Of a stretch of 64,000 nt of DNA, positions 37,164 to 53,656 are shown piece after piece. The stretch is from NCBI GenBank assembly GCA_003152315.1, contig PLZV01000057.1, positions 264,065-328,064 of the forward strand. The letters are read 5' to 3'. The notes under the pieces are model-generated. The model was not told where the DNA came from, searched no databases, and saw only the letters and a list, made by a program, of their open reading frames with translations. Made by a program: the position numbers and the translations under genes. Source of the stretch: Verrucomicrobiota bacterium (GTDB lineage Bacteria > Verrucomicrobiota > Verrucomicrobiia > Palsa-1439). The number at the start of each line of letters is the position of its first letter. Position 1 is the stretch's first letter.

Positions 37164-37194
37164 GAGCGGCATGAAATGCGGAGCGCCACCGTCA

Positions 37195-37410: not shown

Positions 37411-37672
37411 GACTTGTGTTGGCGGTAGGGAGTTTAGGTTGGTCTGCTAAAAGAAGTTCTGATATCACGCTCAATCGATTAACATGCTCCCATCCGGATC
37501 TGGTTGATTCTTATCTGAACCAGCTTCTTTTACACGCCTTAAACTTATTCAAAAGCATCTTGAAATCACGCGGTAACGACACCGAACATTCGTCGCAGCG
37601 AACAGTCTTCATGGGAGGCCCTACTGGTAGCGGGTGCCTGTTGCGCGAGTCCAATGAAGGAGGCAACCAGAC

Positions 37673-39301
37673 TTGCTAAGCTACTTCAATTTCCTCTCGG
37701 GAATTGCGTTGATGCTCTTCGGCATCCGCAGTCTGCGTAAGGGGTCAGACCGTGTCTTTGGGGCCAAGTTTCGAAGTCTTGTCCAGGCGGCCGCCAAGGG
37801 GCCTCTTCGGGCCTTGCTCGGAGGCTTTCTTATCTCGATCCTGGCTCCCAGCAGTACGGCCATGTCACTGCTGTCGGTGGAAGCTGTCAGTGCGGGGTAC
37901 GCCACTCTGCGGCAAATTCTGGTGCTGATGCTGGGGGCCAACGTGGGGTTTACGATCACCGTGCAACTCTTGGCCTTCAAGTTTTACGTCTACAACGCGG
38001 TGTTCATCGCCGTTGGGGTGCCGCTCTACCTATTCAGCAGGCGTCAGATCAGTCTGGGAGCCGGGCAAGCGCTGCTCGGAATTGGGTTCTTGTTGCTGGC
38101 CATTCAGGTGTTATCCGCCGCGGTGGCACCATTGAGGGAAAGTGCCGATATTCTCGAATTGATCCGGGTGTTGGAGAACCATCCGTTGTGGTTGACGCTA
38201 CTGGCCATCGCCCTTCAAGTGGTTGTGCAAAGTTCCACCACGGCCATTGGCATCGGAATCGCTTTGTGTTCGCAGCATGTGATCCGTGTCGAGGCCGCGT
38301 TGGCAATCGTTATCGGTGCGAATATCGGTATCGGCGTTACCTCTTTCATTGCCGGGTTTTCCCAGATCGACACGCGACGCATGGCGCTGGGAATTCTCTT
38401 TATGAAGCTAGTTGGCGCTGCGGTCATTGTGCCCATGATGCCCTGGGTGATTCGGCTGCTGGAACCGTTGAGCCTGCCCGGCAAGACACACGATACGCAG
38501 TTGATTGCCAATGTCCACACCGCCTTCAACATCGCGCTGGCGCTGGTCTTTTTGCCGCTCGTGCCCCTCATGTCCCGCGCCTTGGAGAAATGGATCCCTT
38601 CGCCCACCTCCGCAGGAGGGCAGGTGGGCGTGCGTTATCTTGACCCTTCGGCGCTGGAAAGTCCCGCGCTTGCGTTGGGGCAGGCGACCCGCGAAATCCT
38701 GCACATGGCGGACATCGTGCGCGAGATGTTGCGGAATGCGTATCGCTGTTTTGAGGAGGGAAGTGAGACGCTTTGCGAGGAAGTTCGGCAGGAGGACGAC
38801 AAGGTTGACGCAATCAACAATGAGATCAAATCCTACATCACGCGGCTTTCCGAGCAGGCGCTCAGTACCGAGGATTCGCGGCGGGAGATCGCACTCCTCG
38901 GATTTGCGAATGAACTGGAGAACATCGGCGATATCGTCGACAAGAACTTGATTGAGCTGGCGGAGAAGAAAATCACCCTTCGCGTGGAATTCTCGAGGGA
39001 GGGCCGGGTAGAGCTGGAGGGCTATTTCCAGAAAGTGCTGGAAAACTTTGAGATCGCGATCTCGGCGTTCGCCAGCCAGGACAAAATACTGGCCGACCAG
39101 CTGTTGCGACACAAGCATCGCATCAACGAACTGGAGCGCGACCTGCGCAATCGTCATTTTCGTCGTCTTCACGCCGGGCTCACCGAGTCATTCGAGACGA
39201 GCGCGGTTCACCTGGATGTGCTGACCAACCTGAAGCGGATCAATTCCCACCTCACCGCGGCAGCGTATCCGATTTTGGAGAATGGACGCGCGGGGAGTTG
39301 A
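37673..39301 (+). CDS. Na+/phosphate cotransporter with PhoU-like domain, copy 2
   Basis: A 542-aa paralogue of 18329-19963, similar over its full length. It shows the same repeats ILAPSSTAMSLLSVEAVS and VQSSTTAIGIGIALC, and a PhoU-like helical domain with the nearly identical stretch HKHRINELERDLRNRHFRRLHAGL. The TTG start is supported by GGAGG about 10 bases upstream and by the same start in copy 1. Its stop overlaps the TTG of the next gene (TTGA). No phosphatase follows this copy. The two copies may have diverged in control rather than in transport. Confidence 0.9.
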   Translation: MLSYFNFLSGIALMLFGIRSLRKGSDRVFGAKFRSLVQAAAKGPLRALLGGFLISILAPSSTAMSLLSVEAVSAGYATLRQILVLMLGANVGFTITVQLLAFKFYVYNAVFIAVGVPLYLFSRRQISLGAGQALLGIGFLLLAIQVLSAAVAPLRESADILELIRVLENHPLWLTLLAIALQVVVQSSTTAIGIGIALCSQHVIRVEAALAIVIGANIGIGVTSFIAGFSQIDTRRMALGILFMKLVGAAVIVPMMPWVIRLLEPLSLPGKTHDTQLIANVHTAFNIALALVFLPLVPLMSRALEKWIPSPTSAGGQVGVRYLDPSALESPALALGQATREILHMADIVREMLRNAYRCFEEGSETLCEEVRQEDDKVDAINNEIKSYITRLSEQALSTEDSRREIALLGFANELENIGDIVDKNLIELAEKKITLRVEFSREGRVELEGYFQKVLENFEIAISAFASQDKILADQLLRHKHRINELERDLRNRHFRRLHAGLTESFETSAVHLDVLTNLKRINSHLTAAAYPILENGRAGS

Positions 39302-40455
39302 ACGGATGGAGAAAACGCGTGAGATTTTTGCTCTTGATAGGGGTACTATCCCTGAACTGGTGCGGGGGAGCATCGGCGACGATGTATTCCATTAAACTTG
39401 TGAAAACGGAAGCGCAGAGGTACCGTACGGCGCCAAAACTGGGATTTGTTCGTGACGGTGACGGCTGGCGAGTCGTGACGAAGCCGTGGTACAACGGCGA
39501 GAATGATTGGGAAGTATTCTTCGAACTGGAGACCGATGCGCAGAAGCCGACGCTGCCGGAAGTCCGGATTGTCGCGCCGGGTGTGAAAGTGGCCCGCGCC
39601 ATCACCGGCAAAACCGACGTGCCGTTTACCCAGCAGGGAGACGAAACGACGTTCCGTCTGGCCCCGGACCAGTCGGTCGGTCCGATGATACGCATCGGGT
39701 ATAGCAGCCCGCGGGGGGGGCCGCCCATCTCCCTCGACCACAACTGGGAGATGCGCCGCAACGGGGAGTATCTCAGTGTGCCGTGGCCAGCGAAACAAGT
39801 TGCCGCGGTACCCAACTATCTGCTGGCGGCGCAGGAGGTATTTCGCGTAATGGGCGACATGGGACCGGGTCAACCGAAGAAGTTCGAAGGCGACATCGTG
39901 CTGATGAGTTCAGAAGTCGCCGCCAGTCGCGGCCACGCGGATTTCCCACAACATGTGCATATTATGCACTACCAGTTCGAAACGAACGCTGTCGGCGAGC
40001 GTGTTTACTCCTCCCGCCTCGTGCCGCATTTCTATATGGATGACGATGGGTTAATCGTGCGCAACAACTTTGCCGTGCTCGCGGGCCACGGCAAATCGGC
40101 GCTGCTGGGGTTGAACGACGTGTGTCGATTCGAGGACACGTTCGGCCAGCATATGCTCGATTTGGTAATCACCAAGGTCGGTCTTGAATTACGACGTCCC
40201 GTCGGTCGTGTCTACAGCCTGCGTCCCGACCCGGATCTTGGAGCATCGCATGCCGTGTGGGGATATCAGGGCGACAACCCCATCTGTCGGGTCGAAGCCC
40301 ATGACGACCCGGCCCACGGAGTCTTTTCTTATCAACTTGACACCATCAAGGGGGGGAAGTTGTGGAAACCTTTCGTGACGGTTACCGCTACGATCCATTC
40401 ACCGCCAAGGTGCTGGGCAAGCTTCCGTAACCATCGACACCGCGAGAATCCTTGA
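39298..40455 (+). CDS. Secreted protein of unknown function, probable C-terminal frameshift in a G7 run
   Basis: 385 aa as written. A signal peptide (RFLLLIGVLSLNWCGGASA) is followed by a beta-rich domain (about 30-160) and a second region with several conserved-looking blocks (SLDHNWEMRRNGEYLSVPW, HVHIMHYQFET). I do not recognise the family. The TTG start overlaps the cotransporter stop, so translation is probably coupled. The last 33 residues (after GVFSYQLDTIKGG) look random and basic. In the neighbouring frame a natural ending follows the G7 tract at 40350-40356 (EVVETFRDGYRYDPFTAKVL, stop at 40430). The tract is therefore likely the site of a frameshift or read error. Confidence 0.62.
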   Translation: MNGWRKRVRFLLLIGVLSLNWCGGASATMYSIKLVKTEAQRYRTAPKLGFVRDGDGWRVVTKPWYNGENDWEVFFELETDAQKPTLPEVRIVAPGVKVARAITGKTDVPFTQQGDETTFRLAPDQSVGPMIRIGYSSPRGGPPISLDHNWEMRRNGEYLSVPWPAKQVAAVPNYLLAAQEVFRVMGDMGPGQPKKFEGDIVLMSSEVAASRGHADFPQHVHIMHYQFETNAVGERVYSSRLVPHFYMDDDGLIVRNNFAVLAGHGKSALLGLNDVCRFEDTFGQHMLDLVITKVGLELRRPVGRVYSLRPDPDLGASHAVWGYQGDNPICRVEAHDDPAHGVFSYQLDTIKGGKLWKPFVTVTATIHSPPRCWASFRNHRHRENP

Positions 40456-40486: not shown

Positions 40487-42253
40487 TCAAGACGCTTTGA
40501 CAAACGCTTTCACGACTTTCAACGGATCGCCACTTTCGCTGATCAGGCGGAAACCTTGAGCCGCCGCTGGCACAACAAACGTTTCGGCATAATTGAAACG
40601 CTGGCGCAGACCATTCCTGGTTTCCAGGATAACGGTGCTTCCTTCTACCAGGCTCATCACTTGCGGCGAGTTGTCGGTTGTTACATCCATGTCGCGGTTG
40701 AACTCCAAGCGCTCAACATCGTAGAAGTGGGTGGGATGCGTCGGCAGATGAACGCGCTGCCAACTGCTGCTGCGAGCGACCACACGTGGCCGTGAGATGA
40801 GTTCTTCCGCCACGCATTTGCCCTGCCGTTCAAAGTAGAGATTGTCTAACGCCCGCTCGATATTCAGCGGACGCGGATGTCCGTCGAGATCGAGACGCAG
40901 CCAATCATACATTTTGAACGTAAAGATGTATGGCGTGGCGCTGATCTCCAGGACCAGGTTATTCTCGCCCGAGCAATGGATCGTGCCGTGCGGGATTAGG
41001 AAGAGGTCATGTTTGTGCGCAGGAACGGTGCTGACGAAACGGGGGACTTCCACGGGCGTGGCCTGCTGGAAACTCTGGTTCAGCACCCGGTGAAATTCGG
41101 CGGGGTTGATGCCTTCGTTAAAGCCCAGGTAGACCTGCGCACCCGGCTGGCAATCCAGGATGTAGTAAGTCTCATCCTGCGTGAACGTCTCACCGAAATG
41201 CTTCCGTATATACTCGGGGCGCGGATGGCACTGCACCGACAGGTTTCCGCCACCAAATGTGTCCAGAAAGTCGAAGCGGATGGGGAATTCATATTTGAAT
41301 CGTTCCGCGCAATCGCCCAGCACGGCGTGAGATTCTTGAAACATGAGAAAATCGAACGAGACTTCCAGAAACCGTCTGTCGCTTTCAAACGCCAATCCAT
41401 TCTCGGGCGCGATCAGTTCGAACGACCAAGCGTAGTTCGCGGCATTTTGCGGCAGTTGCGGGATGTGCTGCTTGATCCACTGACCGCCCCACGGCCCCGG
41501 TTCGAACCATGGTCGCACACGAAAAAAGTTGCGACTAATCTGCGTCAACGCCGACCGCAGTTCTGCGCCCGACATCCAGGCCGGGACCTCGGGGCGTTGC
41601 TCATCAACGATTAGATCGATGCGCGGCAACAACTCAGTCTTGTGACGGTTTAACGCCACCCAGTCGACGAAGTAGAACCGCTTGTACATCGACTTGGGAT
41701 CGGCGGCTCCGCTGGCGCCGAGATTCTGCACGGTCCCCGCGCGGGAACGGAATTGGATTTCGTTCTTCGGGACGTCGACGTATACGAGAAATCCTTCCCA
41801 CCCAGCCAATGACGCGCCGCAGCCATAGAGGAGGTTTGGTGCAGCCTTGGAATCCGGTCGCAGCGCACGCAATTTCTGAACATCAAAGAAATTCCGTAGC
41901 TGGCCGGTGAATCGCGTCCCGAACAGCGGATCGTCACCGCCGAGGAATGGCTGTACGAGTCGATCAATCTCCGATTCGGGCCGCAAAGCTTCCTGAACGT
42001 TTATCCAGTGCGCCCGGATGCCGCGCCGCGCGAACGCGGCGTCAAGTTGTTCGCGCAGTTGCGGCCAGAACACGCCTCCGTAACCGTCAATGATCACCTG
42101 TTTATGGCCCGCCAGGCTCTCGGCAAGCCTATCGTATCCGAGCATGATTTTGCCGGAACCGATGGAGTGCGCCGGGTAAGTATCGTACTGGCCTGGCGAG
42201 GGGGGCGACCAGGTCGCTGGCGCGAGTCGCTGTGTTGTTTTGCGCCAGTTCAT
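40487..42253 (-). CDS. Class I mannose-6-phosphate isomerase with N-terminal extension
   Basis: A 588-aa protein and the last gene of the catabolic operon. The zinc-cupin PMI core occupies about residues 250-475: WGGQWIKQHIP, the metal motif QCHPRPEYIRKHFG, DETYYILDCQPGAQVYLGF, and HDLFLIPHGTIHCSG. PMI interconverts mannose-6-phosphate and fructose-6-phosphate, which would feed mannose freed by the mannosidases into glycolysis. The first 240 residues (KQVIIDGYGGVFWPQLREQL near residue 50) resemble a nucleoside-kinase-like domain and make the protein longer than standard PMIs. It starts 4 bp inside the kinase gene and converges with 39298-40455. Confidence 0.87.
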   Translation of the reverse strand: MNWRKTTQRLAPATWSPPSPGQYDTYPAHSIGSGKIMLGYDRLAESLAGHKQVIIDGYGGVFWPQLREQLDAAFARRGIRAHWINVQEALRPESEIDRLVQPFLGGDDPLFGTRFTGQLRNFFDVQKLRALRPDSKAAPNLLYGCGASLAGWEGFLVYVDVPKNEIQFRSRAGTVQNLGASGAADPKSMYKRFYFVDWVALNRHKTELLPRIDLIVDEQRPEVPAWMSGAELRSALTQISRNFFRVRPWFEPGPWGGQWIKQHIPQLPQNAANYAWSFELIAPENGLAFESDRRFLEVSFDFLMFQESHAVLGDCAERFKYEFPIRFDFLDTFGGGNLSVQCHPRPEYIRKHFGETFTQDETYYILDCQPGAQVYLGFNEGINPAEFHRVLNQSFQQATPVEVPRFVSTVPAHKHDLFLIPHGTIHCSGENNLVLEISATPYIFTFKMYDWLRLDLDGHPRPLNIERALDNLYFERQGKCVAEELISRPRVVARSSSWQRVHLPTHPTHFYDVERLEFNRDMDVTTDNSPQVMSLVEGSTVILETRNGLRQRFNYAETFVVPAAAQGFRLISESGDPLKVVKAFVKAS

Positions 42254-43236
42254 TGTCGTCCACCTCGCTGCAAGAGGCCAATCAAGTTAATCGTCGGCTT
42301 AATGCCGAGCGATTCAAGCGCCAGCAGCGCCGCGCCCAACACGGGTGAAAGCTTCGGCTCCACTATCTGTACGGTCGGCACGCGACGTCGAATCGCCGCG
42401 TAAAGCGGTTCTTTGTAGATCGGCCCGGAGTGCGCTACACCACCCGTGACACTCACCAAGATCTTGTCCGGTGGGAACTCGAGCTTTTCGGCCACGGTCT
42501 TTACCATAAGTGCGAGCTCGTCCACGCCCTGCGCGATGATCTCGCGCGCAACTTCATCGCCGGTGACAGCAACTTCGATCATTAGCGGTGCGAGCGCGGC
42601 TATTTCCGCGCGGCTCATTCCATCATGATAGAGACGACGCATGATGTCTTGTGTGTCCGTCAATTTAAGGTGCGCCAGCACGCACTGGCTCAGCGCTGTC
42701 GGCAGTCCGCGTCCATCCGTGTCCCGAACCGCCGCGATCATTGCTTGCAGACCGAGGTAATAGCCACTGCCCACGTCATCGAGCAGATGTCCCCAACCAC
42801 CCGCGCGCCATTCACGACCATTAACACGACGACCGTAACACGACGAGCCAGTACCGACAATCAACGTGATGCCTTCCTCGCCAGCGAGGCTACCGGCGAG
42901 TGAAATGCGAATGTCATGGTCCACGCCGATCTGTCGCGGCGGTGCCATCCGCAGTTCCACGGCGATTTTACAAATCGTTGTCCGGTCGATTTCCGAGACG
43001 ACACCGGCCATCCCGAGAAATACGGCGTCGCAACTTCGTGGTGGTTCGCCCGCCTCCAGCCACGCCTCATGGAGAGCGTGCTGAATGCTTTCTCGTGCCG
43101 CGTCCACGCCAACATCGTCGTAATTGGATGGTCCCGCGACACCCGTACCCAGCACGGCCCCGTCCTCGGTAACAAGGACGACGCGAGTATTCGTCCCCCC
43201 GCCATCTACTCCCGCCACAATCCTTGGATTATTCAC
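42250..43236 (-). CDS. BadF/NAGK-type sugar kinase
   Basis: A 328-aa cytoplasmic kinase of the ASKHA superfamily, closest in layout to N-acetylglucosamine kinase. Visible motifs are the phosphate-1 loop AGVDGGGTNTRVVLV (about residue 9), VDHDIRISL, GTGSSCYG (about 127), GGWGHLLDDVGSGYYLG (about 145) and the adenosine motif VSVTGGVAHSG (about 265). It overlaps the symporter gene by 8 bp and the isomerase gene by 4 bp. Next to a mannose-6-phosphate isomerase it most probably phosphorylates mannose or N-acetylglucosamine taken up by the operon. The exact sugar is inference. Confidence 0.85.
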   Translation of the reverse strand: MNNPRIVAGVDGGGTNTRVVLVTEDGAVLGTGVAGPSNYDDVGVDAARESIQHALHEAWLEAGEPPRSCDAVFLGMAGVVSEIDRTTICKIAVELRMAPPRQIGVDHDIRISLAGSLAGEEGITLIVGTGSSCYGRRVNGREWRAGGWGHLLDDVGSGYYLGLQAMIAAVRDTDGRGLPTALSQCVLAHLKLTDTQDIMRRLYHDGMSRAEIAALAPLMIEVAVTGDEVAREIIAQGVDELALMVKTVAEKLEFPPDKILVSVTGGVAHSGPIYKEPLYAAIRRRVPTVQIVEPKLSPVLGAALLALESLGIKPTINLIGLLQRGGRQ

Positions 43237-45190
43237 GAATCGCCTGGTTTGGTTCGTTGTGATTCACGGTCCCATCGTCATTGTGATCGACTCTTTCCTC
43301 CCGTAAGCGGCGGAAAAATACTCGTATATCGTGCCAGCAGCCGATCGTGAACCATATCGTAGTGACGACCCCTATCAACAGTGGCAGATAGATGGCCGTG
43401 ACCAGCCAGTAATTGGCCCACGCGATGTCTGACCATGGATGAATAAAGTACAAGATGCTTCCGATCACCAGGGCGAGAAACCACGTCACGCTCCAGGCGA
43501 AGATACCGATGGTAATCCAGCGGTCGGTGCGACCGAAGTGATCATCGATGCCGACCAGCGTGGAGAGTCGGAAACGGTTCTTCGCCGGTGAGGAAGTGGT
43601 GACGATTCGCTCGCCCGTCGCCTCGGGTTCGATTGCGTACTTGCCACGATGGAGGAGTTGATCCATGTCGTGTGGTCTATGACAGGTAAGGAGTGAAACG
43701 ACAATGTAGCCAGTTACGGCCACGAAGGCTGCAAAGAATTCGACTTGCCGCCCATTCAATGGAAACGAAGGATAAACCTGCTGCAGAACAATGCCCGTGA
43801 CGGAGAGGATGAAACCGGTCAACATGCCGGTCCACGCGCCCGCGGTGGTGCCGCGGCTCCAGTACAGGCCACCGATGATGCAGGCACCCGCCCCGGCAAC
43901 GAAGATACCTTCGGTGATAATGAACCACATGGCGACATATTGGTTCTGATGGAAGAGCGCCCCGAAGCAGAAGACGAAGATGGCCACAACGGCGATTGCT
44001 GAGCGTAGAAGGATCAGGTGCTGACGCGTAGTCAGCGGAGTCGTACGCAACGGAAGAATGATGTCCTGAATAAGAATGCTGCCCCAAGAATGAAGTTGCA
44101 TGCCATCCCCGGAAAAGACGCCCATCAGGACCGTGGCGACCAAGAGACCCTTGATGCCAACGGGAAGGAGCTGAGAGAGAGCGATCGGATACCGCATTTG
44201 CTTGGCAGTCTGTGGATCGGAGATCGTATCGAGAACATGCTGCACGCTCGCATCTCCGGCTGCGTGGCCCAAATACGTAAAGGCGCAGACACCCAGCAGT
44301 CCCATCATGGCCGTTTGCGCGAAAAGACGCCAGCCACTCAAAATGCTGCCCATGCGCGATTCATGCGGCGAAATCGCAGAAGAGTTGAATCCCTGGCTAT
44401 TCTGCCACGCCATGGTTCGATAGACGAAGAAAAACTGGGTCATCAGCACGTACCAAATGTTGAAGTCTTTAATCTTGAAGGAATGAAAGGGATTGACCAT
44501 GGAGTATCCCACGGGGCGGGCGAGCAGCACCTCACGTGTCTCGTGCCAGCTAAAGGTCAGGAGCAGTACCGTGGCGATGATCACAAAAGCGATCTGCGAA
44601 AACAGGCCTTGGAGCGCGTCTGTCACCAGCACCGTGATTTGTCCGCCAGCGGTCGTCAAGACGACGCAGATGGCCAGAAAACCGGCCATGAGAACGAGGG
44701 AGGTGGGAATTGGGAACAAAGCGAAGTAGATCGATTGCGGCAAGCCAAGAAAGTTGACCATAAACCTCGCCCCAATGACTGGGATGATACCGAAATTGAG
44801 CAAGCCGGCAAAGACGCCCAAGAAGCCGGCGAATAATCGAAACTTACGACTGTAGCGCATCTCAAAAAACTGGGCCAGGGTGAGCGCGCGCGTTTGGCGG
44901 TAGCGATAAATCACAAAGCCACTGATGGCCACGATGAGGCTAACGAGGACGGAAATCTGGTTCCACCAGGTCAGGGTAAAGCCAGCCTGACCGAACATTT
45001 CGAAGTTTGAGACAACCGCGACCGCCCCTGTGCCCATCTCACCCAGGGCGACGCAGAGTAGGAACCGTCCCGCATTGCGTCCGCCAGCCAAAAAATCGGC
45101 AACGCTACGGAGATAACGGCGAGTATACAGGGCCACGCAGACCACCGCGGCAATTGGCAGGGCGATGATCAGCCAGTCAATTACATGCAT
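43229..45190 (-). CDS. Sodium:solute symporter (SSS family)
   Basis: A 653-aa inner-membrane protein with about 14 predicted membrane segments, typical of SSS/SGLT-type sodium symporters. It begins MHVIDWLIIALPIAAVVCV. The signatures are SVADFLAGGRNAGRFLL (about 31-47), FFEMRYSRKFRLFAG (about 108), TAGGQITVLVTDALQG, and GDGMQLHSWGSILIQD. It probably brings the mono- or oligosaccharide across the inner membrane with sodium, before the cytoplasmic mannosidase and fucosidase act. It lies 20 bases behind the HAD gene and overlaps the kinase gene by 8 bp, so it is part of the same operon. Confidence 0.9.
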   Translation of the reverse strand: MHVIDWLIIALPIAAVVCVALYTRRYLRSVADFLAGGRNAGRFLLCVALGEMGTGAVAVVSNFEMFGQAGFTLTWWNQISVLVSLIVAISGFVIYRYRQTRALTLAQFFEMRYSRKFRLFAGFLGVFAGLLNFGIIPVIGARFMVNFLGLPQSIYFALFPIPTSLVLMAGFLAICVVLTTAGGQITVLVTDALQGLFSQIAFVIIATVLLLTFSWHETREVLLARPVGYSMVNPFHSFKIKDFNIWYVLMTQFFFVYRTMAWQNSQGFNSSAISPHESRMGSILSGWRLFAQTAMMGLLGVCAFTYLGHAAGDASVQHVLDTISDPQTAKQMRYPIALSQLLPVGIKGLLVATVLMGVFSGDGMQLHSWGSILIQDIILPLRTTPLTTRQHLILLRSAIAVVAIFVFCFGALFHQNQYVAMWFIITEGIFVAGAGACIIGGLYWSRGTTAGAWTGMLTGFILSVTGIVLQQVYPSFPLNGRQVEFFAAFVAVTGYIVVSLLTCHRPHDMDQLLHRGKYAIEPEATGERIVTTSSPAKNRFRLSTLVGIDDHFGRTDRWITIGIFAWSVTWFLALVIGSILYFIHPWSDIAWANYWLVTAIYLPLLIGVVTTIWFTIGCWHDIRVFFRRLREERVDHNDDGTVNHNEPNQAIRE

Positions 45191-45210
45191 AGACCCATCG
45201 GTGTTCGCCG

Positions 45211-45969
45211 TCAGGCCCTCAATCTCGAACCGGTTTTTCCGAGAGCAGGCTTCCGTCGATCCGCAAGGAGGTGGTCGGCAATTTGGTCAAAGTCTCGCAC
45301 GTGGATCAGCGTGTCGGTATTGCGCGCCGACAGGTCTTCGAATCGATTGACGAGGAATGAACCCGCCAGCCCGACAGAATGCGGTACCTCGTAATCGTCC
45401 CGAAATCCATCTCCCACGACAGCGACTTCCTTCGGTGCCAGGGCAATGTGCGCCAGCGCTTTTTTCCAGTACGTGGCCTCCCATTTCATCGCATGCAAAC
45501 CGGAAACACCGAGGAGCTGGCTGAAGAAAGGCGCTCCCTGGCTGTTGGCTAGGCCGGCCACCCGCAGCTTGTGCAGGATGCCATCGTTGGGGTTGTTGCT
45601 GGTGACATACAGCAGAATCCCGTGATCGCGCAAGCGCGTCAGTGCGGAGCGAATCTCCGGGCCAGTCGCTTCCAGATATTCCGATTCCACCTCATAGGCG
45701 TAATCCCAAAACTGCTTGGGATCGAGGCCGAGTTCCACGATGTAATCCGACCAATGCCACCACGGCACCTGCGTCTTGATTTTTTCGATGCGGCGCTCGG
45801 TGTCCTTGGTGGTCAAGCCGCCGAGTTTCACGCCCGCGCTTTGAAGCACTTCGAAAAGACTGCCGGTCCAATTACCGTTGTTCTTGGCCTCGTGGTGATC
45901 GAGTTTCAGGCGCGTGATGGTGTCATCGATGTCGATCAATAGCGCGCGGATTTTTCCAAACTTGTTCAT
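45211..45969 (-). CDS. HAD-family hydrolase (sugar-phosphate phosphatase-like)
   Basis: 252 aa from the ATG at 45969, which overlaps the mannosidase stop by 4 bp and follows the ribosome site AAAGAGG. HAD motifs are visible: motif I ALLIDIDDTIT (nucleophile Asp near residue 13), motif II LYVTSNN (about 125), the motif III Lys near KWEATYWKKAL (about 165) and motif IV AVVGDGFRDDYEVP (about 185). It is a soluble phosphatase; HAD enzymes in sugar loci often dephosphorylate sugar phosphates and prevent phosphate stress. The specific substrate is unknown. Confidence 0.87.
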   Translation of the reverse strand: MNKFGKIRALLIDIDDTITRLKLDHHEAKNNGNWTGSLFEVLQSAGVKLGGLTTKDTERRIEKIKTQVPWWHWSDYIVELGLDPKQFWDYAYEVESEYLEATGPEIRSALTRLRDHGILLYVTSNNPNDGILHKLRVAGLANSQGAPFFSQLLGVSGLHAMKWEATYWKKALAHIALAPKEVAVVGDGFRDDYEVPHSVGLAGSFLVNRFEDLSARNTDTLIHVRDFDQIADHLLADRRKPALGKTGSRLRA

Positions 45970-48584
45970 AAATTCCTCTTTAGGTGAATCGCCGCTACCG
46001 AGCGTGGCGGCATTTCCACCGTCGCCCAGCCTTCCCGCACGGGCAAAGACTGTTGATCTGCTTCCAGTGTATTGGTTCGAAATGCCCCGATAACGTTCTT
46101 GCCCGACAGCCGCACACGGGCTTGCGCTGTGGTAGTTGAGGTGTTCGCCAGGCGAACGATGGTGCCGCCGTTTTCCGCGTCCTTGACGGCGAGCGGAATC
46201 ACGCCGGCACCGTCCACCTCGACAAAGCGTTTTTGCAGCGATGCCGGTGCAGTCACGACGGGATGAACCTCCACGCTTGAACAGGCTTCCCAACCAGCCA
46301 GAGCGGCGCGCGTCGCGTCGAACGGGCCCTGCGTGGTCAATTCATAACGAAATCGTTGCCAGCCCGGTTGGCTTGCGCGGAAATTGGTGTTCCAATAATT
46401 GTTCATCGGCCACGCGAGAAGCAACGGATTGTTCTTTCGCGACACTTCACTCTGCTTCTTTCCGAAATTGAAGTCGCCAATCTGTACCATTGGCGCATCC
46501 GGGCAGGCGAGAGTAAAGCCGTGGGTTCCATCGTGTAGGGAAACCCACTGACCGACGGTGACCCAATCGCGACAGGAACCGGGCAATTGTTCAGCATCGA
46601 GTTCAACGGGCAATCCCGCTGTATCGAAATGAGCCCGCCATTTTGAGAGGTGGCAGGGGAAGGAAAAGTAGATCGATTCCGGTGTGGCGATATCCAACTT
46701 GCGGAAGGAAACGCTCAATTCGATGGCGGTGCGATGCGCGAAAAGTTTGATGCGCTGTTGCAATTGTTCGACACCCGGTGCGGTCCAATCGAGAACCAGG
46801 CAGGCGCCATCTGCGGTTTTTTCGACACGATGTCCAATCAGGGAAGTGGGTCCCTGACGGAGAGACGGCCAATTGGGTTTCCAGTTTTCGATGTCCTGCC
46901 TCAGGCCGTCGTAAAGAATTTGGAAGGATGCGTCCCTTCCGAAATAAGGTGGTAGTGAAGGATAACGTTTGGGATCAACGGTTTCCTGAACGAATCCAAA
47001 GAACGACCACGGGTTGGCCTGATCGACCACATCCCACTTGAGGGCTTTGTCGATCAAACTGGTAATTCGACCGGTTACTGGATCAAAGGTAAGGCGATGG
47101 AAGGGTGATTCGAGCGTGTTCGCGGAAACCGTGATCCCTGCAGATTCCGTGGCCGCCGGTAATTCAGAAATCGGGAGAATGCGATACCCATTCGCGGGAA
47201 GTTCGATCGGACCCAGCAACCGACTGTTGGTGTCATCCCAACCCTCGCGCTCGACATCGATGCTGTGGACCTTGCTGGAAAAGTGAAGCCACGAATTGTC
47301 GAACCAGACGTTGGGCGCTCGCAAGAAAACCTTTCGCGCAATCGGCGCGGTATTCAGGAACAAGAGGCCCTGACAACCTTCGCCCGAGACCGGGTTGCCC
47401 GCCAGCGCATCCAGTTGGTCTCGCAGGAGCAGTGAAGTAAGGCTGCGGGCCTGGTACGCATAGTTCGCTTTGTGATACCACTGCGCGACGACGCCATCCC
47501 ATTCGGGGTGGGGGATGCTCGCAAAATGGCCCCACGTGTGTTCGTCATGCAGATTCAGATTCCAGTAGGCTTCGTCAACGAGCTGCCGCGTCTCTGCGCT
47601 GGTCGCGGGCCGGTTGGTTCGTAGCAGCTCGGCGGCGGCGAGTCGCGAACGTGTCTCACGATTGACTCGTGTTTCCACGGCGGCGCTGGCGCAACCGAAA
47701 TTCCACCAGTCCGTCCAGTCTCCACGATGCATGGGTAGGAGCGCTTCCGGTTGCTGCTTTAATTTTGCCAGCAGCCCTTCGGGCGTGGTCAGGCGGATGA
47801 CGGGCGTGCGGCCTTCGTCATTCCAGCGTTTGATCATGGCGAGAGCTTGCGGGTAGGGCGGGTTATTGTCCCAGAACAACCAATGCGTCAAACTCAGGTA
47901 AAGAAAGTCGTAGGGATAATTGCGCGCACAGAGTGTCTGGAAATATTCCTCCAATCCTTGCGCCATGGCGTCCGTGGAACTCTCGACGATGCGGCAGATG
48001 CGCTGGAAGATGCCGTAGTGTTCGCCATTGAATACGAGAAGCGGCCGGCCATCGCTGCCCTGCCAGCGGAACGCGGACGGTCGGGTCAGCGGAAAGTTAC
48101 CGAAGTGAATATTGATCCCCATGAGAAGCATCTGGATATCGGCGTCCAGCAAGAGTTGTGTGATGGGCCAGGGCAAACCATTCACGTCATGGTTGATCGC
48201 GACAGAAATGGGAATGCCGAACTGGCGGCGGAGTTCGCGCACGGGTTCAAGACTACGGGCGAGTTGCTCTGCGTCATATAGCGGTGTGATGTTGCAAAAC
48301 ATCGCGCCGATGCTGATGCGTTGCTCATGCACCAGCCGCGCAAATCGTTCGATCTGTTTGTCGCTGGCCTTGTGCAACCAGTGCATGACGGGCCCGGTGG
48401 TTTCGCACGTCCAGCGGACTTGTGAAGGTTCCGGCCATTCCGCTGTTTGCTCGCAGAGGTCGATGGCCTGATCGATGAATCGGCGTTGCAGTTCCCAGAG
48501 AATCGGCTGGGGATGGGTATAGCCGATATCCGTATGACTATGGTGGATGATCAGTACTTCCTTGATGTCCCCTATAGATCTCAT
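45966..48584 (-). CDS. Glycoside hydrolase family 38 alpha-mannosidase-like
   Basis: An 872-aa enzyme without signal peptide, hence cytoplasmic. The N-terminal catalytic domain shows the zinc motif HHSHTDIGYTH (residues 14-24) and a likely nucleophile Asp in AINHDVNGLPW (about 125). The remaining two thirds are the beta-sandwich domains usual for GH38, ending RSVAAIHLKRNL. GH38 enzymes remove alpha-linked mannose. The start overlaps the fucosidase stop by 4 bp and its own stop overlaps the HAD start by 4 bp. Together with the isomerase and kinase this is the strongest hint that the operon handles mannose-containing glycans. Some GH38 relatives act on other sugars. Confidence 0.88.
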   Translation of the reverse strand: MRSIGDIKEVLIIHHSHTDIGYTHPQPILWELQRRFIDQAIDLCEQTAEWPEPSQVRWTCETTGPVMHWLHKASDKQIERFARLVHEQRISIGAMFCNITPLYDAEQLARSLEPVRELRRQFGIPISVAINHDVNGLPWPITQLLLDADIQMLLMGINIHFGNFPLTRPSAFRWQGSDGRPLLVFNGEHYGIFQRICRIVESSTDAMAQGLEEYFQTLCARNYPYDFLYLSLTHWLFWDNNPPYPQALAMIKRWNDEGRTPVIRLTTPEGLLAKLKQQPEALLPMHRGDWTDWWNFGCASAAVETRVNRETRSRLAAAELLRTNRPATSAETRQLVDEAYWNLNLHDEHTWGHFASIPHPEWDGVVAQWYHKANYAYQARSLTSLLLRDQLDALAGNPVSGEGCQGLLFLNTAPIARKVFLRAPNVWFDNSWLHFSSKVHSIDVEREGWDDTNSRLLGPIELPANGYRILPISELPAATESAGITVSANTLESPFHRLTFDPVTGRITSLIDKALKWDVVDQANPWSFFGFVQETVDPKRYPSLPPYFGRDASFQILYDGLRQDIENWKPNWPSLRQGPTSLIGHRVEKTADGACLVLDWTAPGVEQLQQRIKLFAHRTAIELSVSFRKLDIATPESIYFSFPCHLSKWRAHFDTAGLPVELDAEQLPGSCRDWVTVGQWVSLHDGTHGFTLACPDAPMVQIGDFNFGKKQSEVSRKNNPLLLAWPMNNYWNTNFRASQPGWQRFRYELTTQGPFDATRAALAGWEACSSVEVHPVVTAPASLQKRFVEVDGAGVIPLAVKDAENGGTIVRLANTSTTTAQARVRLSGKNVIGAFRTNTLEADQQSLPVREGWATVEMPPRSVAAIHLKRNL

Positions 48585-49825
48585 TTTGGCAAATCTGGAA
48601 AAATATCTGCCGCTCCGATCACGCGGCTAATGTCTTGATCGGGCGGGGAGTCCAATTCTAACTTCACGACACTAAGGAGTTCGTCCGGTGATTGCTCGGG
48701 CAGACCGGTGATAATCGTTTGCGTCGGGCGCTGATCGATGTACAAGCGTTGCCCGGTGCTCAAGAGGGTGGCAGCGAGCACGCGATTGGTCAGGCCGCCG
48801 ACCGTCAGGGTTGGGCCGAAATAGTCTTCCAGGTGCAGGTACATCGTGTTGCCCTTGACCGTGGTCGGCCCCCATAGATTCCACAACAGGCTATGGCGTT
48901 CCGATCCATAAATGCTTTCGCCATGGACCTGCAGCCACTGGCCGACGCGACGCAGGATGGCTTCGCTTTCAATCGGGATCCTTCCTTGCGCATCAGGGCC
49001 GACATTGAGCAGGAGGTTGCCCGCGCCACTCGCCGCAGAGGCCAGCGTGAGAACGACGTTTCGCGGAGACTTGTAATCGTGATCTGTCGGACAATAGCCC
49101 CAATGTCGATTCAAGGTCATGCAGCTTTCCCACATCCGTCCCCGGGGCGCGGCGTTGAGATGCTGTTCGGGAGTGGTGTAGTCTTCCGTCGTCATCGCAC
49201 GGTTATTAATGATGATCTGCGGCTGGAGTTGGCGGACCATTGCATTGAGTTCGACGGCGCGCCATTCGGCGGCGCTGTAACATTGCGGCAAGTCGTAAAA
49301 TAGAAGATCGATCTTCCCATACTGGGCCATCAACTCACGCATCAACGCATGCGTATAGTCTATGAAACGAACGCGCGCCTGGTCATCGCCTTTCCAGCCC
49401 GCAGCCCAGTCGGGGTTATACCAATCGCCGAGTGAGTAATAGAAGCCAACCTTCAAGCCGGCATTACGGATAGCGGTAACATATTCGGCCAGCAGGTCAC
49501 GCCGGGCCGCGGAGTTAAGGGAATTGAACTTGCAGACTTTCGAGTCCCACAGGCAAAAGCCTTCGTGATGCTTGGTGGTCAACACCACATATTTCATACC
49601 AGCGTCAGCAGCCAGTTGGGCCCAAGCTTTGGGATCATAGTCGCGCGGATTGAACGTTTCGGCCAGCTTGCTGTATTCGTCGAGCGGAATGCGCTCGCGG
49701 TTGAGCGCCCATTCTCCGTGTTCCAGCAGAGCATACAATCCCCAATGGATGAACATCCCGAATCGGGCTTGCTCAAACCACGCCATCCGCTCCGAGGAAC
49801 AGCGAATTGAAGGTTTCGTTTGCAT
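48581..49825 (-). CDS. Glycoside hydrolase family 29 alpha-L-fucosidase
   Basis: 414 aa from the ATG at 49825. An in-frame TTG at 49864 would overlap the previous gene by 28 bp; neither start has a strong ribosome site. Family landmarks are WFEQARFGMFIHWGLYALLEHGEW near the N-terminus (interrupted here only for description), YVVLTTKHHEGFCLWDS, and YGKIDLLFYDLPQ with the nucleophile Asp. Then come GHW-type residues NRHWGYCPTDHDYKS and GNLLLNVGPDAQG. The C-terminal sandwich is short. No signal peptide, so it trims fucose from imported fragments in the cytoplasm. Overlap with the mannosidase start is 4 bp. Confidence 0.9.
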   Translation of the reverse strand: MQTKPSIRCSSERMAWFEQARFGMFIHWGLYALLEHGEWALNRERIPLDEYSKLAETFNPRDYDPKAWAQLAADAGMKYVVLTTKHHEGFCLWDSKVCKFNSLNSAARRDLLAEYVTAIRNAGLKVGFYYSLGDWYNPDWAAGWKGDDQARVRFIDYTHALMRELMAQYGKIDLLFYDLPQCYSAAEWRAVELNAMVRQLQPQIIINNRAMTTEDYTTPEQHLNAAPRGRMWESCMTLNRHWGYCPTDHDYKSPRNVVLTLASAASGAGNLLLNVGPDAQGRIPIESEAILRRVGQWLQVHGESIYGSERHSLLWNLWGPTTVKGNTMYLHLEDYFGPTLTVGGLTNRVLAATLLSTGQRLYIDQRPTQTIITGLPEQSPDELLSVVKLELDSPPDQDISRVIGAADIFPDLPK

Positions 49826-49836
49826 CGGGTTCGCGG

Positions 49837-51075
49837 TTATTTCACAAGCTTTGGTTCGCCCCAATAGGCGTGGTTATTCCAGAAGGTTTTCGCATCATTA
49901 ACGTCCTCGACCTTCAACGTGAGTTCGTTGGCGCCATCTAGCTTGATGGAGATGGGAGTTGCCGGATCTTTGACAGTCCGCCGACCGCTCCGAAAAACTT
50001 CACGCCCATCGATCGATACAATGAAATCGGCGGCGCCTTCACGGGTCAGTTCCGCGTTCATGCCGATCATGGCGTCGAACCGGGAAAACACGCCGACCGG
50101 CAAGTTATACCGCATCCAACAATTACGCGGTCCATTCATGCCGCTGTGGGGAAGGACCCCCAGCCCGGGCACCGCCCGCTTTTCACCGTTTGGAAACAGT
50201 AACTTACCAGCCATGACCGGCGCGCCTGCCGGTGGTGTGGAACGATTGCCGTCGAGGATCGCCCCACCATACACGAGGTCATGTATTTCGGAATCAGCTT
50301 TCCAGAGACGCAAATCCACCGTGGCAAACGCCTGCCGTTCCGACGGGGAAATATCTTCGGCGGCGAGCCGCAACGCCGTGTACATGATATCCAGCGTCAA
50401 CTGGGCCGCTTTTGTCACCGGCGGTTCAGCCCGCAGCTCTGCTTCCGCTTTTTTTCCGTCAAAAATGGCCTGCAATAGCGGGATAATGTAACGACGGCAC
50501 TCACGCATCGCTTCGGTGTTGATTGCGGCTTGTCGCCAGGAGACCTCTTCCACATTCAGGCCTAGTAAGTGCGGCTGACGCAGGGTCCCGCACGCGCCCG
50601 TCACGGCTTCGAGGTCAGTGTGATAATGGAAGCCGGACATCGTCGGCGGGGCCGGTATCAATTCCGCCAATAATTGCGAATCCAAAATATGCGCGGATTG
50701 GGTCAGATCGCCAAACCAATGAGAGAAGCAGCCGATGAATTTTATGAACGCCTCGCGGTCACCCTGACGGGATGCCTCGATTGCCTGCGACAACCAGTGA
50801 CGCGAGATCGGACGGCTCTTCGCCTGTTCGGCGATTGGATGCGGCCAAGAGTGGAGGTTGGTGGCATCCATGCCCTTTGGGAAAATGCAAAAACGCTTCC
50901 AAGCCGAGTCTATCTTGCTCTTTTCTTCATCCGAGACCGTGGGGTTATCAAACAAGTCTGGGTAGTTGCCGACGGAAGGGAGTAAGCCCTTCATTAGCTC
51001 CAGTGTCGCGCGAAATTCTTGTGGCAGGGCTTCAAACGCCCCCACCATGATGTTGGCGTGTGCTTGCTTGTTCAT
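49837..51075 (-). CDS. Phospholipase C/S1-P1-like domain fused to NPCBM carbohydrate-binding module
   Basis: A 412-aa protein and the first gene of the catabolic operon. The N-terminal two thirds are helical with His/Asp-rich motifs that recall zinc-dependent phospholipase C/P1 nucleases: LHSWPHPIAE near residue 74, FIGCFSHWFGDLTQSAHILD near 112 and GFHYHTDLEA near 147. The C-terminal third (about 270-412) looks like NPCBM: FDAMIGMNAELT, DFIVSIDGREVFRSG, ANELTLKVEDVNDAKT, and HAYWGEPKLV. No signal peptide is evident, which is odd for both parts. The ATG lies about 110 bases from operator site 6. Its role in glycan use is unknown. Confidence 0.65.
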   Translation of the reverse strand: MNKQAHANIMVGAFEALPQEFRATLELMKGLLPSVGNYPDLFDNPTVSDEEKSKIDSAWKRFCIFPKGMDATNLHSWPHPIAEQAKSRPISRHWLSQAIEASRQGDREAFIKFIGCFSHWFGDLTQSAHILDSQLLAELIPAPPTMSGFHYHTDLEAVTGACGTLRQPHLLGLNVEEVSWRQAAINTEAMRECRRYIIPLLQAIFDGKKAEAELRAEPPVTKAAQLTLDIMYTALRLAAEDISPSERQAFATVDLRLWKADSEIHDLVYGGAILDGNRSTPPAGAPVMAGKLLFPNGEKRAVPGLGVLPHSGMNGPRNCWMRYNLPVGVFSRFDAMIGMNAELTREGAADFIVSIDGREVFRSGRRTVKDPATPISIKLDGANELTLKVEDVNDAKTFWNNHAYWGEPKLVK

Positions 51076-51185
51076 TCAGTCTTTTTCAATTGGATGCAAC
51101 AGAATTACTTCTACCAATATCATCAACGAGTGAAGTGAAGGAACCACTTTGATGATCCCTCAGTATAAAACTCTGCACAATCTTA

Positions 51186-51199
51186 TCAGAACGTTCTGA
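51186..51199. promoter_or_regulatory. Operator TCAGAACGTTCTGA (site 6) in promoter of the catabolic operon
   Basis: A perfect palindrome filling the spacer of a minus-strand promoter: -35 TTGTTT (51203-51208), a 17-base spacer, and -10 TAAGAT (51180-51185). The predicted start point lies about 100 bases before the first gene (ATG at 51075). An operator lying within the spacer is the classic position for repression. Confidence 0.87.
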
Positions 51200-51300
51200 T
51201 ATAAACAAGCGTGAAGATGACACCTTTTAGTTACCCTTGCAAGAGAGGGAGTTTCGACAAAAGTAGTAAGTGATCTCTCAGAGAATTAGTGCTTGCCTAA

Positions 51301-51314
51301 TCAGAACGTTCTGA
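51301..51314. promoter_or_regulatory. Operator TCAGAACGTTCTGA (site 7) upstream of lacI-type regulator
   Basis: A perfect palindrome 31 bases before the regulator ATG, preceded by a possible -35 TTGCCT (51293-51298). It lies 115 bp from site 6, close to eleven helical turns, so a tetrameric or paired repressor could bridge both sites. Autoregulation of the regulator is the simple reading. Confidence 0.87.
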
Positions 51315-51345
51315 TAAGCTCTAAAGAAGCGAGGCAGGATGAACC

Positions 51346-52383
51346 ATGGCTACTGGACTTAAAGAGGTCGCTCTCATTGCTGGAGTGTCCGTGCAAACGG
51401 CTTCCGACATCCTTAATTGCGGGCGGCATGACCGGTACAATCCCAACACTCAGGCCAGAGTGAAGGAGGTCGCGCAAGAACAGCGCTACCGCCCACAACG
51501 ACTGGGAAGAGTGCTACGCGCTCAATCCACGGGTATGATCGGCTTCGTTACCGCAAATTTTTCTCCCGAGGATGGCCAGTTGGAGTTCTACAACGTCTAT
51601 CCGTTCCTCGTGGGAATGAGTCATCACCTCAGCGCGCGTGACTATCATGTGGGATTGCTGGAAATAGCGGAATTCCAACAGAAGAATGACAAGGATTTAC
51701 CACGATGCCTGCAAGAGCGGTTCTACGACAGTTTGGTGATCCACTGGGGACTTGCTGAAAAATTTGCGGGGCTGATGCCACTATTGGGAATACCTGCCAT
51801 TTGGTGGGATGCAGGACTATTCCTGCCCAACAACTGCTTGGATCGAGACGAAGCGGAGGTTGGGCGAACCATCACTAATCACCTGATCGAGCTGGGGCAC
51901 CGGCGGATCGGGTTCATGGTCGGCCAAAGAAGTTGGGAGCAATACAAACAAGGAAATCCGCCTCATTACAGCTATTCCCAGAGATATGAGAGCTATGGCG
52001 CGGTGCTGCATGAGCGTGGCTTGGAAGAGATACCAATCAAGGGTTACGGGGTGCCGCAGCTTACGGCGCAGATGAAAAAGCACCAACTGACCGCCATCGT
52101 CACCATGTCGACTGCCAGCGTGCCCTACGTGCGGTTGGCGGCCCATAAATTGGGATGGAGTGTACCGCAGGATCTATCTGTGGCCGTCTGTGATTTTGAA
52201 GAGAGAGTTCGACAAACGGAAATGTGCGTGGGCGGTGTATCGTATGACCGCTATGCGGTGGGCCGTCAAGCGGCCGAGATGCTACTCGAGTTGCTAACAC
52301 AGCGAGATCGGACAGTCGCCAGTGCCAAGTTCGTTGGGGAATTCTGCGTCGGCGACACGATCAGTCGCGCACCGGCTCGATGA
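51346..52383 (+). CDS. LacI-family transcriptional regulator, probable controller of the locus
   Basis: A 345-aa DNA-binding regulator. The N-terminal helix-turn-helix reads LKEVALIAGVSVQTASDILN (residues 5-24), followed by the hinge region YRPQRLGRVLRA (about 48-59). The sugar-binding periplasmic-type domain starts at STGMIGFVTANFS and includes the NHLIELGHRRIGFMVG strand. AGGCAGGA precedes the ATG. The hinge of this family inserts at a central CG step, which the palindrome TCAGAACGTTCTGA has. Two copies of that palindrome sit between this gene and the divergent glycan operon, and six more lie before secreted-protein genes. It is therefore the best candidate to bind them; the inducer is unknown. 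Confidence 0.9.
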   Translation: MATGLKEVALIAGVSVQTASDILNCGRHDRYNPNTQARVKEVAQEQRYRPQRLGRVLRAQSTGMIGFVTANFSPEDGQLEFYNVYPFLVGMSHHLSARDYHVGLLEIAEFQQKNDKDLPRCLQERFYDSLVIHWGLAEKFAGLMPLLGIPAIWWDAGLFLPNNCLDRDEAEVGRTITNHLIELGHRRIGFMVGQRSWEQYKQGNPPHYSYSQRYESYGAVLHERGLEEIPIKGYGVPQLTAQMKKHQLTAIVTMSTASVPYVRLAAHKLGWSVPQDLSVAVCDFEERVRQTEMCVGGVSYDRYAVGRQAAEMLLELLTQRDRTVASAKFVGEFCVGDTISRAPAR

Positions 52384-52492: not shown

Positions 52493-53419
52493 ATGAAAAA
52501 TAATATGACAATCGGTGGTTTTATCTCGTCTTCTACGGGGGCGCGATTATTGGCAGTGGCTTTACTTTCGGTCGGCACGCTCTTTGGGGGAGAGGCCTAT
52601 GCGGTCACTGAGACGTGGCTGGGCAACGTGTCGGACACCAGCAGCAATTGGTCAAGTGTTGGCAACTGGTCCGGGTCTCCCGTCCGGGTGCCGACCAGTG
52701 CTGATTTGGCGGCCCTGAATAATACCGCAGCTTCGTACACCGCAAACTTCGCGACGGGTATTACCACGTACACGATCAGTTCGTTCATCGTGAGCAATAA
52801 CGGCGGAAACACCACCACCTTGAATCTCAACCAGGGCACGCTGGCCACAGGTAGCGCGAGCACAATGAATATTCTGGGCAATGGTGGAACCATAAACATT
52901 AATAACACCGCCGTGTTGAAAACCGCATTTGGACTCAACGTTACCGCAGGCGACTTGACCTTGAACACCGGCGGCATATTGACAAATATCTCAACTACTT
53001 CGCCTTTCGCGGTGACAAACGGTGGCGTAGTGTCCATGCAGGGCGGCCAATTGGTGACACCCAAGCTTAGCTTGTTCCCCACTGCAGTTTTGGACTTCGG
53101 TTTAACGACGCCGGGCGCCAACAATCCCGTGAGAATTATCGGCACGGGCGGCCTGATTCTTGATGGGACGGTAAATGTTAACGATCTGGGCGGGTTCACG
53201 ACGGGTACCTATTTGCTGATGACCTATACGGGAACATTCACGGATAACGGGTTGAATGTTGGCGTCCTGCCAGCGGGATTCAGCGCCACGGTCGATAATA
53301 GCACCGCGGGCCAGGTGAATTTGGATATAACGGCGATTCCTGAGCCATCCACGGTCCTGTTAAGCGTATGTGGCTTGATTGGACTATGGCTTCTGCGAGG
53401 TCGAAGACATGCCGTGTAG
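52493..53419 (+). CDS. PEP-CTERM protein, paralogue of 13613-14584
   Basis: A 308-aa surface protein that matches 13613-14584 along nearly its whole length (VTETWLGNVSDTSSNWSS, the Thr/Asn-rich strands, VSMQGGQLVT, GLILDGTVNVNDLGGFTTG). It differs mainly in the shorter N-terminal leader. The tail is PEP-CTERM (IPEPSTVLLSVCG, membrane segment, RGRRH). The ATG follows AGAGGCGG. Unlike the paralogue it has no operator of its own; it starts 109 bases behind the regulator gene and could be read from the same promoter. A conserved surface or matrix role is likely; no enzymatic motif was seen. Confidence 0.87.
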   Translation: MKNNMTIGGFISSSTGARLLAVALLSVGTLFGGEAYAVTETWLGNVSDTSSNWSSVGNWSGSPVRVPTSADLAALNNTAASYTANFATGITTYTISSFIVSNNGGNTTTLNLNQGTLATGSASTMNILGNGGTININNTAVLKTAFGLNVTAGDLTLNTGGILTNISTTSPFAVTNGGVVSMQGGQLVTPKLSLFPTAVLDFGLTTPGANNPVRIIGTGGLILDGTVNVNDLGGFTTGTYLLMTYTGTFTDNGLNVGVLPAGFSATVDNSTAGQVNLDITAIPEPSTVLLSVCGLIGLWLLRGRRHAV

Positions 53420-53585
53420 AACAGATTTTGACTCGTTATTGTCACCGGGGAGTATTCGCTTTGTGATGGGAGAAGGATGCCTGCCTGAAACGTCAACCCG
53501 GATCATTGAGCCCATCGGCATACGCGCCGGCAGCTAATAAAACGGGTATGGATAAATATCTTGAAAAAAGCGCATTTTTTACTTG

Positions 53586-53599
53586 TCAGAACGTTCTGA
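53586..53599. promoter_or_regulatory. Operator TCAGAACGTTCTGA (site 8) upstream of double lectin-like gene
   Basis: A perfect palindrome overlapping TTGTCA (53583-53588), with TTTATT at 53605-53610 as a possible -10. GCATTTTTTrCTTG precedes it exactly as at sites 1 and 5, so about 20 bases of promoter context are conserved. The gene ATG lies 57 bases downstream. Confidence 0.85.
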
Positions 53600-53656
53600 T
53601 ACGGTTTATTCTGTCTTCAACTTAATACGGGAAGCTCGATGGGAGAAGGAAAAATC

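Follow-up and report, generated by a model that had tools for sequence, protein, structure and literature searches.

Organization of the seven-gene operon

The element described here is a putative glycan-utilisation operon in a 64,000-nucleotide stretch, hereafter the window, of contig PLZV01000057.1 (positions 264,065 to 328,064; assembly GCA_003152315.1) from a Verrucomicrobiota bacterium. It consists of seven tightly packed minus-strand genes extending from 51075 to 40487, as given in a preliminary description of the window made from the sequence alone. That description reported overlaps of 4–8 bp at most junctions; overlaps of 4, 4, 8 and 4 bp are found at four of the six junctions, whereas the other two have gaps of 11 and 20 bp. 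Coordinates are those of the window, and protein lengths are in amino acids (aa).

49837–51075, minus strand: gene 1, zinc protein of the phospholipase C (PLC)/S1-P1 type with a C-terminal NPCBM domain, 412 aa (Pfam for NPCBM; ligand positions)
48581–49825, minus strand: gene 2, GH29 alpha-L-fucosidase without signal peptide, 414 aa (PF01120, E 2.8e-90)
45966–48584, minus strand: gene 3, GH38 alpha-mannosidase-type enzyme without signal peptide, 872 aa (PF01074, E 9.4e-17)
45211–45969, minus strand: gene 4, HAD-superfamily phosphatase, 252 aa (PF00702)
43229–45190, minus strand: gene 5, sodium:solute symporter (SSS), 653 aa (PF00474)
42250–43236, minus strand: gene 6, BadF/NagK-family sugar kinase with a GTG start, 328 aa (PF01869)
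40487–42253, minus strand: gene 7, long class I-like mannose-6-phosphate isomerase (PMI), 588 aa (1qwr match)

Two starts were corrected: the GH29 gene was set to the ATG at 49825 in place of a longer TTG open reading frame starting at 49864, and the HAD gene to 45969, the listed TTG start at 46293 being too long. The Pfam scores, all above the cut-offs, were 60.2 bits for NPCBM, 303.7 for GH29, 61.7 and 26.8 for the N-terminal and C2 domains of GH38, 37.2 for HAD, 50.3 for SSF and 156.5 for BcrAD_BadFG. The family assignments made earlier thus mostly hold, except that the PLC part of gene 1 has no Pfam match even at E 10 and that the PMI match is remote only. No signal peptide was visible on the N-termini of the PLC, GH29, GH38, HAD, kinase or PMI proteins, which were read by eye without SignalP; this agrees with the cytosolic placement of the hydrolases in the preliminary description. 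Promoter and terminator scans of the DNA gave matches at or below chance. When the gene order was compared with other genomes, a check that the preliminary description had proposed, no fetched locus contained all seven genes and GH38 was patchy, so that conservation of the entire operon as a unit was rejected.

The operon lies within a probable local LacI-type regulon

Two perfect copies of ATCAGAACGTTCTGAT stand in the intergenic region between the operon and a divergent lacI gene. All 8 occurrences of the palindrome TCAGAACGTTCTGA in the 4.89-Mb genome fall within the window. A search with the 14-base operator core, which permitted one mismatch, returned 8 places in the 4,887,466-base genome, all of them perfect and all between window positions 13384 and 53600. 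For the window, 0.14 sites would be expected, and the reversed-pattern control gave 0 matches in the whole genome. The sites, located by pattern search and listed without strand, and the regulator gene are as follows.

13384–13399: operator upstream of a PEP-CTERM protein gene (13613)
18143–18158: operator between the GH99-like gene and copy 1 of a sodium/phosphate (Na/Pi) symporter gene
23968–23983: operator upstream of a secreted beta-helix/CBM96 protein gene (24225)
27313–27328: operator upstream of the gene for a 1876-aa secreted beta-helix protein (27378)
34667–34682: operator upstream of the gene at 34783 and the tandem genes leading to Na/Pi copy 2
51185–51200: operator ATCAGAACGTTCTGAT upstream of the operon
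51300–51315: operator upstream of lacI
53585–53600: operator upstream of a secreted PKD-domain protein gene (53639)
51346–52383, plus strand: LacI-family regulator, 345 aa (PF00356 and PF13377)

The operator at 51185–51200 overlaps a promoter-like match (51189–51162), although such matches were fewer than chance. At the sequence level, a lacI gene accompanied by palindromic sites at the putatively regulated promoters is the arrangement of a LacI regulon, and the LacI protein is the likely reader of the palindrome. Because the eight operators are confined to the window and lie ahead of the operon, lacI and secreted genes, the operon is, as predicted from these sites, the cytosolic part of a local LacI-type regulon of about 40 kb.

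The PLC-type protein lacks the N-terminal tryptophan of its secreted relatives

Gene 1 was assigned to the PLC type because of its ligand positions and a weak profile match to the B. cereus PLC (E 0.0067) across the ligand stretch. S1/P1 nucleases and zinc phospholipases C have nine ligands, with a spacing that matches gene 1 (PMC5201275, PMC11705217). The positions in gene 1 are M1, H6, D40, H75, H119, D123, H129, H152 and E156, and the spacings (N-terminus to His, 5; His to Asp, 4; Asp to His, 6; His to acid, 4) are those of SmNuc1, whose ligands are Trp27, His32, Asp71, His88, His141, Asp145, His151, His175 and Asp179 (PMC11705217). All 12 signal-less sequences examined (ten from a phylum search, the window protein and that of genome G293) retain all nine positions, among them the eight that correspond to the side-chain ligands listed for the trinuclear zinc site in PMC11705217. 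In eleven secreted relatives, H6, D40, H119, D123, H129 and H152 are present in 11/11 and E156 in 9/11; H75 is poorly aligned. The invariance of positions that would bear a catalytic zinc cluster, and their retention in the secreted members, argue against the protein being a zinc-stabilised carbohydrate-binding scaffold with no enzyme activity, a reading that we consider improbable.

In S1 nuclease, the main chain of the N-terminal Trp binds zinc after cleavage of the signal sequence (PMC5201275). Position 1 is likewise Trp in 11/11 secreted relatives, in which the signal peptide ends right before it (for example W-G-E-P-H), whereas it is Met in 12/12 signal-less sequences; the window protein and seven close relatives start M-N-x-x-x-H. 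No Trp exposed by signal-peptide cleavage stands at the N-terminus of gene 1, and as its ATG is directly preceded by an in-frame TGA, a leader is impossible for the window protein. In a tree built from 12 signal-less and 11 secreted sequences, 23 in all, one branch with support 100/99 splits the two forms; the tree left out the Met-Ser proteins described below, and two signal-less rows are long-branched.

A census of 387 genomes of the phylum (E up to 1e-8) gave 24 places in 22 genomes, and all 24 N-termini were read. The predicted N-terminus lies 4–5 residues ahead of the first zinc His at every one of these places. Fifteen lack a signal peptide, with ten Met-Asn starts (one from TTG) and two Met-Lys starts lying 5 residues before the His and three Met-Ser starts lying 4 residues before it; in the remaining nine, a signal peptide ends before a Trp located 4 residues before the His. 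Met-Ser-x-x-His (L161, L165 and L167), without a signal peptide, adds a third type of N-terminus to the PLC-like family. From these N-termini, the gene 1 zinc enzyme appears to be cytosolic, with its initiator Met placed where the secreted relatives expose Trp1. A literature search found no description of cytosolic or Met1 zinc PLC/P1 enzymes, which is weak evidence of absence.

In two genomes, the cytosolic PLC gene has beside it a gene for a secreted protein in which Trp comes directly after the signal peptide and the His and Asp residues are spaced as in PLC (L147:4847–7003, minus strand; L149:10875–12611, plus strand). In genomes G625 and G442, the protein encoded next after PLC is a secreted one that reads, by eye, FG|WGSGH or FG|WGRGH together with H-x3-D-x5-H; the G442 protein has no Pfam match.

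A HAD partner and phosphate genes accompany the PLC-type gene

The HAD gene adjoins the PLC gene in five of the eight close members (G293, G625, G442, G585 and the window operon). The HAD protein in G293 is 53–57% identical, and the motifs DxD, SNN, K and GDxxxDD are invariant in 5/5 homologues. In G585, the gene order is HAD, PLC, GH29, with a GH29 protein 53% identical to that of the window; other PLC neighbourhoods include GH2, GH78, polysaccharide deacetylase and a LacI gene. Three further genes with phosphate-related products lie within the regulon.

18329–19963, plus strand: Na/Pi symporter with a PhoU domain, copy 1 (NF037997, 132 bits against a cut-off of 50)
19970–21187, plus strand: calcineurin-type metallophosphoesterase (PF00149)
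37673–39301, plus strand: Na/Pi symporter with a PhoU domain, copy 2, 80.7% identical to copy 1 (PF02690)

Copy 1 starts ~170 bp from an operator and is followed by the metallophosphoesterase gene, for whose product no solved relative was found and a hydrophobic N-terminus suggests secretion. The genome, which is 95.8% complete, has two Na/Pi symporter genes, and both are inside the regulon, an outcome with a probability of ~7e-5 if they were randomly placed. The last 4 bp of the Na/Pi copy 2 gene are shared with a gene at 39298–40455, whose secreted product is matched by neither Pfam nor NCBIfam.

The preliminary description gave no role to the PLC-like, HAD and two Na/Pi symporter genes, which form the unusual part of the locus. 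The best reading of the PLC–HAD pair is that a phosphodiesterase and then a phosphatase would act on imported phosphate-bearing fragments. A possible but less probable reading is that of a plain mannose/fucose operon in which PLC and HAD serve an unrelated task (nucleotides, lipids or metabolite repair) and the Na/Pi symporter genes, having a general role in phosphate handling, are here by chance. In line with this, PLC and HAD are not always found with GH29/GH38, as the G293 pair stands without them between, and a long distance separates Na/Pi copy 2 from the closest operator upstream of it (34667 to 37673). However, the PLC protein bears an NPCBM domain of carbohydrate-binding type, the loci of core PLC members also contain GH29, GH2, GH78 or a LacI regulator, and both Na/Pi genes of the genome fall within the regulon span. 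A literature search found no phosphorylated-mannan loci with GH38, again weak evidence of absence.

The mannose route

PMI has no Pfam match, and its TIGR00218 score of 19.9 bits is below the cut-off of 116.2. It matches the B. subtilis PMI (1qwr) with E 2.8e-11 over residues 246–565, and this similarity to a characterised enzyme across the catalytic domain identifies it as a predicted class I PMI. A search of 384 genomes from the class yielded 37 long PMI homologues at E < 1e-100, the window's counted, with two weaker ones (E 2.4e-50 and 1.8e-44) excluded. A sugar kinase gene is found no more than 5 kb from the PMI gene at 30 of the 37 places, with both genes on one strand in 30/30; the kinase is of the ROK type at 21 and of the BadF/NagK type at 9, never both, the count taking in only kinase places on contigs of interest. 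Since the two families substitute for each other beside the same PMI, there is good evidence from gene linkage that the kinase makes the PMI's substrate, and gene 6 is probably a mannose (hexose) kinase.

An amino-sugar operon, in which the kinase would act on N-acetylglucosamine (GlcNAc) or N-acetylmuramic acid (MurNAc) and the isomerase-like protein would not be a PMI, seems quite unlikely. The kinase does match the MurNAc/GlcNAc kinase 8zo3 (E 1.4e-48), and it scores 141 bits with NagK_SO3507, though below the cut-off of 370. Nevertheless, a Sulfolobus hexokinase of the same family matches too (2e2n, E 5e-31), the BadF/NagK kinase replaces ROK beside the long PMI at the places counted above, and the Pfam scan of the operon shows no deacetylase, deaminase or N-acetylglucosaminidase family.

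The GH38 protein is predicted to belong to its family on the basis of the profile and key residues: H17, D19, D133 and H349 are invariant in 6/6 sequences (the window protein and five relatives), and we take these residues (HxD, D and H) to be the metal/nucleophile positions. One Fimbriimonadia genome has consecutive genes for ROK, PMI and a GH38 of the same subfamily (43% identity). The nearest relatives come from Chloroflexi, Fimbriimonadia, Devosia and Lachnoclostridium (37–44% identity), whereas in 56 other near genomes no near-full-length GH38 relative exceeds 31% identity, short stretches reaching 41%. The GH38 gene is thus patchy and was probably transferred. From the kinase and isomerase, the predicted mannose route is well supported; the complete path to fructose-6-phosphate in the preliminary description stands for mannose but not for fucose, as the operon contains no fucose isomerase, kinase or aldolase.

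Fucose release and uptake

The GH29 protein, whose closest solved relative is 6gn6 (E 3.1e-99), is placed in GH29 by this relative and by the family profile; Asp178 is presumably the nucleophile-type residue. An aldo-keto reductase and an amidohydrolase (21214–23090) were considered as a possible fucose oxidation branch, for which NCBIfam and solved-structure searches gave no supporting match.

The SSS symporter scores 75 bits with TIGR00813, below the cut-off of 184. Its proposed role as an importer of oligosaccharides is doubtful, and of ABC sugar importers only one was seen in the window, with a frameshift in a permease gene. This carbohydrate importer (binding protein, MalF-like and MalG-like permeases; 7833–11158) lies outside the operator span; the frameshift, near 10765, interrupts its MalG-like frame and may reflect either a broken importer or a misassembly. 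Next to the interrupted importer, the minus strand carries two fragments resembling transposases (11946–13029), presumably of the IS110 style. No SusC/SusD pair was found among the 29 window proteins scanned with Pfam, the remaining genome not being searched for SusCD. The operon therefore lacks SusCD, as had been described, to the extent of these 29 proteins, but this is not a novelty, because such loci have been published for Verrucomicrobiota (PMC8857213).

A secreted GH99-like enzyme under the same operator

15139–18102, minus strand: secreted GH99/GH71-like enzyme, 987 aa (family profile against 4acy)

The preliminary description had postulated a secreted GH99-like endo-enzyme under the same operator, and such a gene is present, with an operator 40 bp upstream. 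The window protein by itself gave no GH99 match in family-profile searches, and its kinship was found by profile: a profile built from 20 family members, of which one is the window protein and the others come from 19 of 24 further loci found, matches the endo-alpha-mannosidase 4acy with E 1.4e-9. PF16317 is matched by 17 of the 20 family members, the window protein not being among those 17, and both catalytic Glu residues, E523 and E526, are invariant in the family alignment. The window motif reads EYDE, unlike the published GH99 catalytic motif EW[H/G]E (PMC11025385). These features indicate a GH99/GH71 relative of uncertain specificity.

Proposed function of the regulon

We propose that the window contains a LacI-controlled glycan-utilisation locus of which the operon is the intracellular half, equipped with a cytosolic PLC–HAD module that would strip phosphate, and we put the probability of this reading at roughly 0.6. 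The enzyme activities, the substrate and the direction of phosphate transport in this scheme are those that we infer. The secreted GH99-like endo-enzyme and beta-helix/CBM96 proteins would bind and cut a glycan containing alpha-mannose and fucose, and small fragments would enter through the SSS symporter or an importer elsewhere. In the cytosol, GH29 and GH38 would take off fucose and mannose, the BadF/NagK-type kinase would form mannose-6-phosphate, and the long PMI would convert it to fructose-6-phosphate; a sugar or fragment would free the repressor from the eight operators. The PLC-type zinc enzyme would cut a phosphodiester (or phosphomonoester) substituent off the imported oligosaccharide held by NPCBM, the HAD enzyme would liberate the phosphate, and the Na/Pi symporters of the regulon would handle it.

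Several observations weigh against parts of this scheme. SSS proteins usually carry small solutes. Seven of the 37 long PMI places have no kinase within 5 kb, and the closest solved relative of the kinase is the MurNAc/GlcNAc kinase 8zo3. The GH38 is divergent, with no solved relative (its profile finds nothing at 1e-5 against solved structures), and its near-full-length relatives in the 56 near genomes given above do not exceed 31% identity. HAD was not found beside PLC in three of the eight core members (G400, G504 and G394), though G400 has a different HAD-type gene two genes from PLC. The single-sequence AlphaFold2 model of gene 1 has a pLDDT of 37.5 and so gives no confirmation of an alpha-helical PLC/P1 fold. 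Finally, three of the 15 signal-less relatives begin Met-Ser, for which removal of the Met is expected, whereas Met-Asn normally retains it; the initiator Met would therefore not be a ligand in all members.

With respect to the metal site, the cytosolic enzyme may complete its three-zinc site with the amine of the initiator Met in place of the Trp of the secreted relatives. We extend this only tentatively to the glycan loci of the phylum, where cytosolic zinc phosphodiesterases might use Met1, retained through Asn2, as the zinc ligand that replaces Trp1 and, together with HAD, might strip phosphodiesters (phosphocholine, phosphoethanolamine, phosphosugar or similar) from imported oligosaccharides. 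If this is true, the three-zinc site of secreted enzymes has been re-created in the cytoplasm via a fixed start codon, which would be new, and phosphate-bearing glycans, for which few enzymes are known, are food for these bacteria.

Comparison with known systems

The glycan part of the locus is one more SusCD-free mannose/fucose locus and is ordinary in kind. Verrucomicrobiota GH29 loci combine fucosidases, other hydrolases and symporters in units resembling polysaccharide-utilisation loci without SusCD (PMC8857213), and the present locus resembles them in having GH29 and a symporter together without SusCD. Those loci are sulfatase-rich, and the main text of PMC8857213 contains no occurrence of LacI, and no PLC/HAD pair was seen described for them; unlike them, the present locus has GH38, the kinase and PMI in one operon and one operator at eight sites. 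The pneumococcal locus SP_2141–SP_2146 (PMC5215778) shares GH29, GH38, a sugar kinase (ROK there) and a secreted endo-enzyme that makes fragments. It has ABC import (NgtS-P1-P2), EndoD, GH125, GH92 and GH20 (PMC5215778), whereas SSS, a GH99-like enzyme, a BadF kinase, PMI, PLC and HAD are found here.

S1 nuclease (PMC5201275) and SmNuc1 (PMC11705217) begin with a zinc-binding Trp, whereas gene 1 starts with Met1, is predicted to be cytosolic and has NPCBM. Bacterial enzymes of the GlcNAc-specific phosphodiesterase family strip phosphodiester substituents from glycans, as proposed here; that family, however, belongs to the endonuclease/exonuclease/phosphatase superfamily rather than to zinc PLC, and its available text describes no HAD partner (PMC10704324).

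Surrounding genes

The left end of the window (1–7289) carries type I restriction-modification genes, a YgjP-like peptidase gene and a phage-type integrase gene, and these suggest a genomic island boundary. Two PEP-CTERM-type proteins (13613–14584 and 52493–53419), 80.7% identical to each other, are encoded near opposite ends of the regulon, and four beta-helix proteins (24225, 27378, 56141 and 60570) are paralogues.

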